Source: Marinilabiliaceae bacterium
GTDB lineage: Bacteria; Bacteroidota; Bacteroidia; Bacteroidales; Marinilabiliaceae
Direction of reading: 5' to 3'
Assembly: GCA_021443545.1 (NCBI GenBank)
Contig: JABUTU010000082.1
Span: forward strand, 1 to 64,000
Length of the DNA: 64,000 nucleotides
This document shows positions 3,414 through 7,767 of this stretch, piece after piece. The notes beneath the pieces are model-generated. The model searched no databases. It had not been told where the DNA came from and worked only from the letters and a program-made list of their open reading frames with translations. How positions within the stretch are numbered: the stretch's first letter is position 1; each line of letters starts with the position of its first letter. The translations under genes and the position numbers were made by a program.

Positions 3414-3445
3414 TTTGGATTTGTCAGAAAAGTTACATAGTTTTG
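3414..3445 (+). promoter_or_regulatory. Promoter of trp operon (TTTG-N20-TAGTTTTG)
   Basis: -33 TTTG at 3414-3417, 20-nt spacer, -7 TAGTTTTG at 3438-3445. Confidence 0.65.
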
Positions 3446-3486
3446 TGAAAAATAGAAAATGTAGAATCATGCAACAAGTGATTAAA

Positions 3487-3534
3487 ATGTGGTGGCGTTG
3501 GCATCTTACTTCCAGTCTCGGAGGCGAGTGCTAA
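3487..3534 (+). CDS. trpL: Putative trp operon leader peptide MWWRWHLTSSLGGEC
   Basis: ATG TGG TGG CGT TGG CAT CTT ACT TCC AGT CTC GGA GGC GAG TGC TAA: three Trp codons within the first five codons, between a promoter and a terminator upstream of trpE. Confidence 0.8.
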   Translation: MWWRWHLTSSLGGEC

Positions 3535-3560
3535 GTTACGTGCGTGATATATAATAGCAT

Positions 3561-3594
3561 AAGGGCCTTACCGAGTCGGTGAGGCCCTTTTTTT
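3561..3594 (+). terminator. Intrinsic terminator in trp leader (attenuator)
   Basis: AAGGGCCTTACCG-AGT-CGGTGAGGCCCTT, 13-bp stem with triloop, followed by a T tract, 58 nt upstream of trpE ATG. Confidence 0.88.
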
Positions 3595-3651
3595 ATGTAT
3601 TTGCGAAAGTAGTATGTAAAAAATGAAGTATAACGTTTTTATAAAAGTATT

Positions 3652-5067
3652 ATGAAAATCAATTCAAGGGTTTCGCGATTTCCAGCGGAACAGTCGGATT
3701 TGGTGACGCCAGTATCAGCTTATCTGAAATTGAGAGATGTGTATCCTAACACAGTGCTTCTTGAGAGCTCGGATTATCATGCTCATTCCAATGCAATGTC
3801 GTTTGTCTGTTTCGACCCGATTTCAGAGTTCATTGTAGAAGATACGACAAGGACCATCATCGTAGACAATGCTGTTAGCAATGTAAAACATTTGGCAGAT
3901 GTGGGAGAGGCCGTAGAAGAGCTTGATGCTTTCATTAAGTCGTTTGAGATTGAAGGTGATGCAGAAGAATTGCGAGTTAATGGGGTCTTCGGGTATAGTG
4001 CCTATGATGCGGTGCGTCATTTCGATACTTTGCAGTTGCGTTCTAATGAAAGGGCATACAAAGTGCCGGATATTCGCTATGCCATGTATAGAAAGATTTT
4101 GGTTTTTTCGCTCTTCACTAATAAGTTATGCCTGATTGAAAATCTACGAGAGGGAGAAGAGAGCGAGCTATTAAGAATAGAGAACCTCTTTATTAATCCT
4201 GTGACACCGCGCTTTTCATTTAGAGCTAAAGATGACGAGCAGTCAAATGTGACAGATGAAGATTATATGAAGATGGTAGCCAAAGGGAAAGAACACTGTT
4301 TTAGAGGAGATGTTTTTCAAATAGTTCTTAGTCGGCAGTTCTCCAGAGGTTACGAGGGAGATGATTTCAATGTATACCGAGCATTGCGTTATATTAACCC
4401 ATCACCATATATGTATTTCTTCGATTATGGGTCATATCGTATCTTTGGCTCATCACCTGAGACAGAGCTTTTAATAAAAGATGGGGTAGCAGAGATTAAT
4501 CCAATAGCTGGCACCTTCCGACGTACTGGGGATATGTTGAAGGATAAGGAGCTCGCCATAGTTTTGCATGACGACCCCAAGGAGAGCGCTGAACATGTAA
4601 TGCTTGTAGATCTTGCCAGAAATGATTTAAGTCGTTATTGCTCGAACGTCAAGGTTAACAAATTCAAAGAGATACAATTTTATTCGCATGTTCTTCATAT
4701 GGTATCAAATGTTAGTGGAGAATTGAATAGCGATACAACAGCATCGTCACTTATGGCTGCCACTTTCCCAGCAGGAACGTTGAGTGGAGCTCCCAAGTAT
4801 AGGGCGATGCAACTAATCGATGAAATAGAGAATCAGTCGAGAGGGACCTACGGGGGGTGTATTGGTATAATGCATTTCAATGGAGACTTCAATCAGGCAA
4901 TAATGATAAGGACATTCCTATCAAAGAACAACAGACTATACTACCAGGCAGGAGCGGGAGTCGTAGCCAAAAGCATCGAGTTGAGCGAGCTACAGGAGGT
5001 GAATAACAAACTTGGAGCTCTGACAGCAGCAATTAATGAAGCACAATCACTAAATCTAAGACTATAA
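3652..5067 (+). CDS. trpE: Anthranilate synthase component I
   Basis: Chorismate-binding motifs (PSPYMYFFDYGSYRIFGSSPE, NPIAGTFRRTG, HVMLVDLARNDLSRYC, FPAGTLSGAPKYRAM, GAGVVAKS); LLESSDYH feedback motif. Confidence 0.95.
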   Translation: MKINSRVSRFPAEQSDLVTPVSAYLKLRDVYPNTVLLESSDYHAHSNAMSFVCFDPISEFIVEDTTRTIIVDNAVSNVKHLADVGEAVEELDAFIKSFEIEGDAEELRVNGVFGYSAYDAVRHFDTLQLRSNERAYKVPDIRYAMYRKILVFSLFTNKLCLIENLREGEESELLRIENLFINPVTPRFSFRAKDDEQSNVTDEDYMKMVAKGKEHCFRGDVFQIVLSRQFSRGYEGDDFNVYRALRYINPSPYMYFFDYGSYRIFGSSPETELLIKDGVAEINPIAGTFRRTGDMLKDKELAIVLHDDPKESAEHVMLVDLARNDLSRYCSNVKVNKFKEIQFYSHVLHMVSNVSGELNSDTTASSLMAATFPAGTLSGAPKYRAMQLIDEIENQSRGTYGGCIGIMHFNGDFNQAIMIRTFLSKNNRLYYQAGAGVVAKSIELSELQEVNNKLGALTAAINEAQSLNLRL

Positions 5068-5981
5068 TGATAAAACAAGATATTTATAAGTTCATGCGAC
5101 AGAATCCAGTGTTCTGTCTGGCTACAATTTCGGATGGTAATCCACGTGTTCGGGCAATGCGTTTGGTGGAGGCTTCAGAATACGGAATAGTATTTTCATC
5201 ATCCATAAGTAGTAATCTGCAGAAGGAGTTAGAAGTGAATAGAGATGTTGAAATGTGTTTCCATGATGGAGAGACGCAGATTAGGGTAAGGGGTGTCTTA
5301 TCGTATGAAAAGAGAGGTGATAATGTGACATATAGACTCGAGAGGGGAATGGCAAAAGTCACTGAAGAGGATTTGTCGTATTTTGTCTCATTGCGTCCAG
5401 AAATCAAGATTCTTGTTTTGGATAATTACGATTCATTTGCATATAATATTGTACATTACCTGCGCGAGCTTGTCGATGGTTTTGGAATAGTCGAAGTTTT
5501 TCGCAATGACGAGATTAAGATTGAGGATATCGCAAAGTATGATAAGATACTTCTTTCACCAGGACCTGGTATTCCAGATGAGGCGGGGATACTAAAAGAT
5601 GTAATCAGAGAGTATGGGGCTACAAAGAGTATTTTAGGTATATGCTTAGGTTGTCAGGCAATCGCAGAGGTGTATGGAGGTACTCTTATAAATATGGAGC
5701 AGGTATATCATGGTGTTGCATTGAATACGTTGGTGACAGAAAAGGATGACTACTTGTTTGCTGGTTTGCCATTCCAGTTCCTTTCTGGTCGTTATCACTC
5801 GTGGATTGTAAATAGTAATAATTTGCCTGATTGTCTGACAATTATATCCAGAGATGAGGATACGGGTATGATTATGGGTTTACGTCATAAAGAGTATGAT
5901 GTAAGGGGACTACAGTTTCACCCAGAGTCTGTTTTGACAGTCGGAGGAAAGCAAATGTTGAAAAATTGGATAGATAAGTAA
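5067..5981 (+). CDS. trpG: Anthranilate synthase component II (TrpG) with N-terminal pyridoxamine 5'-phosphate oxidase-like domain
   Basis: aa ~1-110 resemble the PNPOx-like split barrel (PVFCLATISDGNPRVRAMRL...); aa ~112-304 are class I GATase (KILVLDNYDSFAYN, LSPGPGIP, GICLGCQAIAE, LQFHPESVLT). TAATGA overlap with trpE. Confidence 0.88.
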   Translation: MIKQDIYKFMRQNPVFCLATISDGNPRVRAMRLVEASEYGIVFSSSISSNLQKELEVNRDVEMCFHDGETQIRVRGVLSYEKRGDNVTYRLERGMAKVTEEDLSYFVSLRPEIKILVLDNYDSFAYNIVHYLRELVDGFGIVEVFRNDEIKIEDIAKYDKILLSPGPGIPDEAGILKDVIREYGATKSILGICLGCQAIAEVYGGTLINMEQVYHGVALNTLVTEKDDYLFAGLPFQFLSGRYHSWIVNSNNLPDCLTIISRDEDTGMIMGLRHKEYDVRGLQFHPESVLTVGGKQMLKNWIDK

Positions 5982-5987
5982 TATACT

Positions 5988-6977
5988 ATGAAATCGATAC
6001 TTAATCATCTGTCAGCGTTTAAAACGTTGACACAGGAACAGGCCCATGATGTGCTTTTCAATATAGCACATGAACAATACAATAAGAGTCAGGTAGCAGC
6101 ATTCCTTGGTTGCTATACGATGCGTCCAGCGACTGTAGAGGAACTCATAGGGTTTCAGAAGGCATTGTTGGAGTGTTGTACACGTATAGACCTTTCAGAA
6201 TTTAATTGTATAGACTTGGTTGGTACAGGTGGCGATTGTAAGAATACATTCAATATCTCCACACTATCAGCGTTTGTTTTGGCGGGAGCAGGTTTAAAAG
6301 TTTCCAAGCATGGTAATTACGGAGTCTCTTCAGGGTGCGGGTCAAGCAATGTTCTTGAATCGCTTGGCTATAAGTTTACAGCAGAGCAGGATGTTCTCAA
6401 ACGACAGATTGACAAAACAGGAATATGTTTTCTTCACGCTCCGCTGTTTAATGTAGCAATGAAGGTGGCTGCCCCATTCAGGAAAGAGTTGGGAATAAAG
6501 ACATTTTTCAATATATTGGGCCCCCTTGTAAATCCATCTTTTCCGAAAAACCAGATGTCTGGAGTCTTTAACCTTGAGACCCTTCGATTATATAATTATC
6601 TCTTCCAGAAATCAGGGAAGAGGTATTGCGTCATCCATTCACTTGATGGGTATGATGAGATATCTCTAACGGGAGGTTGTAAGATTATAACAAATGAAGA
6701 AGAGATAGTCCTCTACCCTGAGGATATGGGGTTCAAGACAGTCTTTCCGAAGGATATAGAGAATGGAGCCACAGTGGAAGATGCTAAGAATGTCTTTCTG
6801 AGTATCATATCTGGAGAGGGAACAGAGGCGCAACGTAGTGTGGTTCTTGCAAATTCTGCATGGGCAATTAAAACAGTGCGTCATGACATCTCGTTTGAAG
6901 ATGCAAAACAGTTGGCCATCGACAGTTTGGATGGTAAGAAAGCGTTAGGCGTATTGAAAGCACTTATAGATATGTAA
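5988..6977 (+). CDS. trpD: Anthranilate phosphoribosyltransferase
   Basis: DLVGTGGDCKNTFNIST, KHGNYGVSSGCGSSNVLE, FLHAPLFN motifs. Confidence 0.95.
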   Translation: MKSILNHLSAFKTLTQEQAHDVLFNIAHEQYNKSQVAAFLGCYTMRPATVEELIGFQKALLECCTRIDLSEFNCIDLVGTGGDCKNTFNISTLSAFVLAGAGLKVSKHGNYGVSSGCGSSNVLESLGYKFTAEQDVLKRQIDKTGICFLHAPLFNVAMKVAAPFRKELGIKTFFNILGPLVNPSFPKNQMSGVFNLETLRLYNYLFQKSGKRYCVIHSLDGYDEISLTGGCKIITNEEEIVLYPEDMGFKTVFPKDIENGATVEDAKNVFLSIISGEGTEAQRSVVLANSAWAIKTVRHDISFEDAKQLAIDSLDGKKALGVLKALIDM

Positions 6978-6981
6978 TAAA

Positions 6982-7767
6982 ATGAATTACTTAGACAAAA
7001 TAATAGCTTCAAAGATAGAGGAGCTGAAGTATGAGAAGAGTGTGCTATCAGTTGATGAATTGAAGGATATGATTTCAAATATGCCTCCGACCACTCCATT
7101 TGCCGAGAGTATAAGAGTGCGTAATGGAATCATAGCTGAGTTTAAACGAAAGAGTCCTTCTAAGGGCATCATACACAATGATATTTCACCACGGGATGTG
7201 GTGCCATACTATGAAAAAGCTGGAGTGTCGGCGGTCTCAGTGCTAACCAATAGAGAGTGGTTTGGAGGTGAAATTAAAGATCTTAAAGATGCTTCGGAGA
7301 GTGTCGGTATCCCAATATTGCGCAAAGAGTTTATTGTTGATTCATATCAAGTATATGAAGCAAGAGCTTTCGGTGCATCGGCCATTCTTCTGATTGCCGC
7401 GGTATTAGAACGCAGTCAGGCGAGAGACCTTGCGGCTATTGCGAAGGAACTCGGCATGGAGGTTCTTATGGAGCTGCATGGCGAAGATGAGTTCGGTTAT
7501 ATAGTGGATGGCGTGACAGTAGCTGGTATCAATAATCGAAATCTAAAAACGTTTGAGGTCGACTTAGAGCACTCCGTTCGTATGTCGAGGATGCTGCCAG
7601 ATGAGTTGCCTAAAATTTCTGAGAGCGGAATACGAAGTGTTGATGATATGCGTTTCTTGAGAGAGAGGGGAGGCTTTGATGGTTTCCTGATAGGGGAGAA
7701 TTTTATGTGCTCATCAGATCCGGGTCGGGCGTGTATTGAATTCTGTAAGAGTATAGATTGGAGATAA
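6982..7767 (+). CDS. trpC: Indole-3-glycerol phosphate synthase
   Basis: IAEFKRKSPSKGII, SVLTNREWFGG, LRKEFIVDSYQVYEARAFGASAILLI, GINNRNLKTFEVD, SESGI motifs. No TrpF domain. Confidence 0.95.
   Translation: MNYLDKIIASKIEELKYEKSVLSVDELKDMISNMPPTTPFAESIRVRNGIIAEFKRKSPSKGIIHNDISPRDVVPYYEKAGVSAVSVLTNREWFGGEIKDLKDASESVGIPILRKEFIVDSYQVYEARAFGASAILLIAAVLERSQARDLAAIAKELGMEVLMELHGEDEFGYIVDGVTVAGINNRNLKTFEVDLEHSVRMSRMLPDELPKISESGIRSVDDMRFLRERGGFDGFLIGENFMCSSDPGRACIEFCKSIDWR

Follow-up and report, generated by a model that had tools for sequence, protein, structure and literature searches.

A predicted tryptophan attenuator upstream of trpEGDC in a Marinilabiliaceae genome, with counterparts across the Bacteroidales

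The DNA that precedes the tryptophan biosynthesis genes trpEGDC in the draft genome of a Marinilabiliaceae bacterium (GCA_021443545.1, 104 contigs) very probably serves as a ribosome-mediated transcription attenuator. We analyzed the first 64,000 positions of the forward strand of contig JABUTU010000082.1, hereafter the window, in which the attenuator spans positions 3414–3651. Regulation of this kind was predicted for the phylum as early as 2010, and the window provides a well-supported further case.

Anatomy of the leader

The leader and the four genes that we predict it to regulate are arranged as follows:

3414–3417, + strand: TTTG, a −33-like promoter element read from the sequence, aligned and conserved in the four nearest relatives
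3438–3445, + strand: TAGTTTTG, a −7-like element read from the sequence; a similar TA-N-TTTG is aligned in relatives
3469–3534, + strand: leader peptide ORF MQQVIKMWWRWHLTSSLGGEC, its ATG at 3469 aligned with that of four relatives (L004–L007)
3490–3501, + strand: Trp codons in TGG TGG CGT TGG (residues 8, 9, and 11), the proposed ribosome stall site, where conservation in the leader alignment is highest
3509–3513, + strand: CUUCC, protector strand, paired with GGAGG 3520–3524 in the 1:2 hairpin (probability 0.97–0.998 without a ribosome)
3517–3525, + strand: segment 2, CUCGGAGGC, putative antiterminator 5' strand, in the tail of the leader ORF and coverable by a ribosome at the stop codon
3565–3575, + strand: segment 3, GCCUUACCGAG, putative antiterminator 3' strand (pairing 0.95–0.99 with a stalled ribosome and RNA exposed to 3576–3582)
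3561–3594, + strand: intrinsic terminator with a 13-bp stem, a 3-nt loop, and seven T, from sequence and folding, with covariation in 62 leaders
3652–5067, + strand: trpE, anthranilate synthase component I, ATG at 3652 (Pfam PF04715 and PF00425)
5067–5981, + strand: trpG with an N-terminal PNPOx-like domain (Pfam)
5988–6977, + strand: trpD (Pfam)
6982–7767, + strand: trpC (Pfam)

The elements that a preliminary description had picked out from the sequence (TTTG at 3414–3417, TAGTTTTG, an ORF at 3487–3534 encoding MWWRWHLTSSLGGEC, CTCGG at 3517–3521, CCGAG at 3571–3575, the terminator, and the trpE ATG at 3652) all lie where it placed them. We take TTTG and TAGTTTTG (3438–3445) to be the −33-like and −7-like parts of a promoter of the Bacteroidetes type. 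The arms of the terminator hairpin, 3561–3573 and 3577–3589, enclose the loop AGT, and seven T stand at 3588–3594. Folding of the leader RNA from 3446 to 3600 yields −53.3 kcal/mol (z = −4.84), a value as good as which was found in none of 200 dinucleotide shuffles. When the short ORFs in which Trp codons cluster were inspected, on either strand of the 64 kb, the trpE leader alone had a hairpin and T tract behind it. Sub-threshold Rfam matches in the window (GibS, Thr_leader, and others) rest on the terminator only and were discarded. The complementarity of CTCGG and CCGAG, previously suggested as the antiterminator, is indeed present, but the predicted helix extends beyond these 5 bp; it pairs CUCGGAGGC at 3517–3525 with GCCU(UA)CCGAG at 3565–3575, which gives 9 bp around a 2-nt bulge.

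Two features of the proteins deserve mention in their own right. The PNPOx-like domain of TrpG (5067–5981, + strand; PF01243, residues 4–98, E 1.7e-10) is fused to the glutamine amidotransferase, whereas TrpG of the nearest relatives (L004–L007) stands alone, without this fusion; eight other genomes of the family encode relatives of the PNPOx portion as separate frames of ~150–220 aa, and by position none of these frames adjoins trpE or trpG. TrpE within one genus falls into two groups, with 71–73% versus ~50% identity to the window protein, the genomes being divided into G001–G007, G011, G012, and G014 on one side and G000, G008–G010, and G013 on the other; this division of the sequences suggests that the trp operon was replaced or transferred.

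Start of the leader peptide

The preliminary description had the leader begin at ATG 3487, which would give a peptide of 15 residues and leave the mechanism otherwise unchanged. This ATG is in frame and directly 5' of the Trp codons, with an A-rich stretch before it, but the four nearest relatives (L004–L007, TrpE 71–73% identical) have ATA or ATT at the position and carry their own leader ATG in alignment with 3469, so that we consider a start at 3487 improbable. Because of this alignment, in which MQQVIKMWWRWHLTSSLGGEC stands beside the relatives' leader peptides MQNITLIWWRWQLSSSLRR, MNKLSLIWWRWQLSSSLRR, MKNMSLIWWRWQLPSRVRR, and MQNVTLIWWRWQLSSKSRR, the start is most likely ATG 3469 and the predicted peptide has 21 residues, with Trp at positions 8, 9, and 11. 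A Shine-Dalgarno site is not expected to drive initiation at a leader of the Bacteroidota.

A switch that depends on the ribosome

From the anatomy, conservation, covariation, and computed folding reported here, we infer initiation at 3469, stalling, termination, and a response to tryptophan along the following lines. When charged tRNA-Trp is ample, a ribosome would read the 21-codon leader to its stop codon (3532–3534) and cover segment 2 (3517–3525); the terminator at 3561–3594 could then form, and RNA polymerase would stop before trpE. When charged tRNA-Trp is scarce, the ribosome would stall at Trp codon 8, 9, or 11 and open the hairpin in which GGAGG (3520–3524) is paired with CUUCC (3509–3513), and the freed segment 2 would pair with 3565–3575 as this emerges, so that the terminator could not nucleate and the operon would be transcribed. 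If the leader were not translated at all, the 1:2 hairpin would form and termination would be the default.

Structural ensembles of the window leader were computed with the ribosome footprint (assumed to reach from 13 nt upstream to 14 nt downstream of the first base in the P site) barred from pairing and with the 3' end of the RNA at successive positions. With no ribosome, GGAGG 3520–3524 was paired with CUUCC 3509–3513 at a probability of 0.97–0.998 and the antiterminator was near zero. A ribosome at Trp codon 8, 9, or 11 raised the probability of the antiterminator (3517–3525 with 3565–3575) to 0.95–0.99 while the RNA was exposed to 3576–3582. With the ribosome at the stop codon, a mask that by construction takes out much of the leader segment, the antiterminator fell to 0 and the terminator formed as its 3' arm emerged. 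Alternative-structure analysis had been put forward as a check in the preliminary description, and in this constrained form it returns the window antiterminator only when the ribosome is stalled at the Trp codons. Once the full 3' arm is exposed, the terminator wins at equilibrium in all ribosome states, and antitermination must therefore be kinetic; as masked full-length leaders always settled into the terminator at equilibrium, truncated transcripts were used in their place.

The same procedure applied to 85 leaders gave a mean of 13.7 antiterminator pairs with a stalled ribosome, 2.4 with the ribosome at the stop codon, and 5.5 with none, versus 5.9 for a stalled ribosome and a shuffled spacer. 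At least three pairs separate the stalled state from both other states in 63/85 leaders, against 16% of shuffled controls. Within these computed ensembles, the predicted switch depends on the position of the ribosome.

Conservation across the order

We sampled TrpE loci at three levels, namely the genus, the family, and (by an even draw) the order, and added two from GTDB genomes (n = 105). A Trp-rich leader ORF followed by a terminator stands before trpE, or before trpB when that gene comes first, at 101 of the 105 loci, which do not amount to 105 independent cases (L060 and L074 are probably one contig, and several species are close). An automatic scan found such a leader before trpE in 88/105 loci. 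Its picks at L027, L029, and L030 were wrong and were corrected by hand: the proper leader is closer to trpE at L027 and L029, and none is closer at L030. The leaders of L024 and L112 are located farther upstream. Twelve loci, including that of the genome of L030, have trpB ahead of trpE, and there the leader stands before trpB. No leader was counted at L070, which lies at a contig edge, or at L038, L093, and L100.

Alignment of related trpE upstream regions, which had also been suggested beforehand, reveals retained Trp codons and compensatory changes in the terminator. Conservation among the 62 aligned leaders is highest in the Trp codon block, and the TTTG and TA-N-TTTG promoter-like elements also align with the nearest relatives. 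These data bear on a different reading of the region, in which the hairpin is a terminator under the control of a non-ribosomal factor (a TRAP-like protein, a T-box, or a riboswitch) and the Trp-rich ORF plays no part. Covariation in the hairpin would look no different for an intrinsic terminator by itself; however, it is the Trp block that is best conserved in the leader across the order, the short ORFs that hold these codons precede whichever trp gene comes first, and no Rfam family, T-boxes included, attains its gathering score in the window. We regard control by such a factor as scarcely credible, and attenuation by the ribosome as the preferred explanation.

Some loci have more than one leader. 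A single trp operon in L129 is preceded, from ~1145 to 1400, by tandem Trp-rich leader ORFs (MKFISKNHIWWWLS and MNKNNWWHWSNFFSPK) with a hairpin behind each, and L029 has two Trp-rich leader ORFs, at −325 and −162 upstream of trpE. These could possibly be double attenuators.

Covariation of terminator and antiterminator

In the terminator stem, 98.2% of cells across the 62 leaders are paired, all 11 of the pairs tested have changed on both sides, and both-side changes number 116 cells versus 29.4 in shuffles. For the antiterminator, covariation in a fixed register on the MAFFT alignment was no higher than in shuffles, apparently because species differ in the register that they use. A register-free comparison was therefore based on the best helix that each leader segment forms with the top of its own terminator versus those of other lineages. 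Among 41 representatives, cognate helices scored 16.7 against 12.3 for non-cognate ones, a difference matched in 0 of 20,000 permutations, and their energies were −13.1 versus −9.15 kcal/mol; the comparison was also made on all 85 leaders. Examples of cognate helices are ACCGGAGT:ACTCCGGT (L034), TGCTGTGTTAAGC:GCTTAACACAGCA (L045), and AATCTCGG:CCGAGATT (L042). By this test, sequence covariation across the group supports a predicted antiterminator that excludes the terminator. The window on its own is not individually significant, as its best contiguous helix has 5 bp and 15/40 foreign terminators do equally well. The full duplexes of the 85 leaders place the antiterminator mostly on the 5' arm of the terminator plus the loop; an earlier view that relatives use mainly the 3' arm was dropped, the 5' arm being dominant in 60/85 and the 3' arm in 20/85.

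A one-base deletion and a possible shift of register

Between the Trp block and CGGAGG, the window has one base fewer than all four nearest relatives (CAGTCTCGGAGG compared with CAGTCTTCGGAGG in L004 and L005). The frame behind the deletion is changed, such that the TAA of the relatives reads CGA and the window ORF stops at 3532–3534. The top of the terminator differs as well, with ACCGAGTCGGT in place of the relatives' GTCGATAACTCCGAC, and CUCGG pairs with CCGAG. The deletion and the altered terminator top are consistent with compensation.

One could also see here a decaying or misassembled remnant whose switch was broken by the 1-nt deletion in its tail, given that the four nearest relatives are one base longer before CGGAGG, that their stop codon is gone in the window, and that the genome is a 104-contig draft. 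Such a remnant seems very unlikely, as the shifted frame still runs into a stop, 14 codons from where the Trp block begins, the altered terminator top preserves pairing with the segment (CUCGG:CCGAG), and the window leader still switches cleanly in constrained folding. A functional leader may instead have been rewired: the tail deletion would have shifted the frame and the stop codon, and CUCGGAGGC:GCCU-UA-CCGAG (5' arm plus loop) would have replaced the relatives' CGGAG:CUCCG (loop plus 3' arm). We put this forward tentatively, with doubt somewhat outweighing confidence; if true, it would show how the register of such switches drifts while their logic is kept, in a phylum whose initiation is not led by Shine-Dalgarno sites.

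A second leader, upstream of trpF-trpB-trpA

The remaining genes, trpF, trpB, and trpA (trpB named from its sequence), are on another contig of the window genome. Upstream of trpF-trpB-trpA, MIWRWWLPLKSSTTGDNA is followed by a terminator (L134 2015–2071; G000:C17:34508–34634 corresponds to L134 2009–2135). This leader scores 46.2 bits with R1, a model of Bacteroidales leaders described below, from whose training set it is absent, and it also switches in the ribosome-footprint simulation. The tryptophan pathway of this genome is split, with a predicted attenuator before each half. Second leaders occur in other species of the genus too, before trpB in G004 and before trpD in G006 and G014 (genes named from sequence). 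A search of 71 family genomes for TrpR returned nothing above the Pfam cut-off, and the E. coli and B. subtilis controls were detected.

The E. coli-type logic of competing 1:2, 2:3, and 3:4 helices proposed in the preliminary description is upheld by conservation across the order, by covariation, by the footprint ensembles, by a leader that moves with whichever gene heads the operon, and by the second copy before trpFBA.

Relation to known leaders

The E. coli trpL leader combines a short Trp-rich ORF, competing 1:2, 2:3, and 3:4 helices, and a terminator before trpE, all as in the window. It differs in that many Bacteroidales antiterminators reach into the loop of the terminator and also take up a few bases of its 3' arm, and in that no TrpR partner was found in the 71 family genomes; we do not claim homology. 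Vitreschak et al. reportedly predicted attenuators of amino acid operons by comparative genomics in 2004, with cases that included Bacteroidetes/Chlorobi.

Whether this layout is known in the lineage had been left open. It corresponds to a prediction for Bacteroidetes, the Bacteroid-trp RNA (RF01692), which Weinberg et al. (2010, PMC2864571) included among probable cis-regulatory motifs and which a 2019 paper (PMC6414381) likens to the trp leader of E. coli. We found no experimental study of a trp attenuator in Bacteroidales in the open literature. Like the window, the Bacteroid-trp RNA belongs to this phylum, stands before trp genes, has a hairpin whose 5' arm contains the Trp codons, and carries a GGCUUGUC-type terminator arm behind that hairpin; the window differs from it in having WWRW instead of WWW and an antiterminator register of its own.

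RF01692 does not match the window, either at its gathering threshold (49 bits) or when E values as high as 10 are admitted, nor does it match the rest of the window genome, second leader included. It finds one of 20 tested relatives (L061) and has matches in 30 of 300 phylum genomes, of which 28 belong to a single family. Model R1, built from 62 Bacteroidales leaders with the window and L061 in its training set, matches 68/300 phylum genomes, among them every one of the 30 that RF01692 matches, where the two models' hits overlap, and gives the window, itself a training sequence, 50 bits. R1 matches below ~36 bits were dismissed as chance, since none of seven inspected had a Trp-rich leader before a hairpin. 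Through R1, with L061 recognized by both models, intermediate sequences connect the window to accepted RF01692 members. The window leader is below the Rfam threshold and hence not a formal member of RF01692, and, judged by its sequence anatomy and this continuity, it is of the same kind.

This RNA class is sparsely described. In the order it precedes almost every trp operon that we examined; the current Rfam model misses most of these and detects the class mainly in one other family of the phylum. Because the leader moves with whichever gene is first in the operon and precedes each half of the split pathway, attenuation is probably the main control of tryptophan synthesis in these bacteria, and the attenuator offers a ready test of transcription-translation coupling in Bacteroidota.
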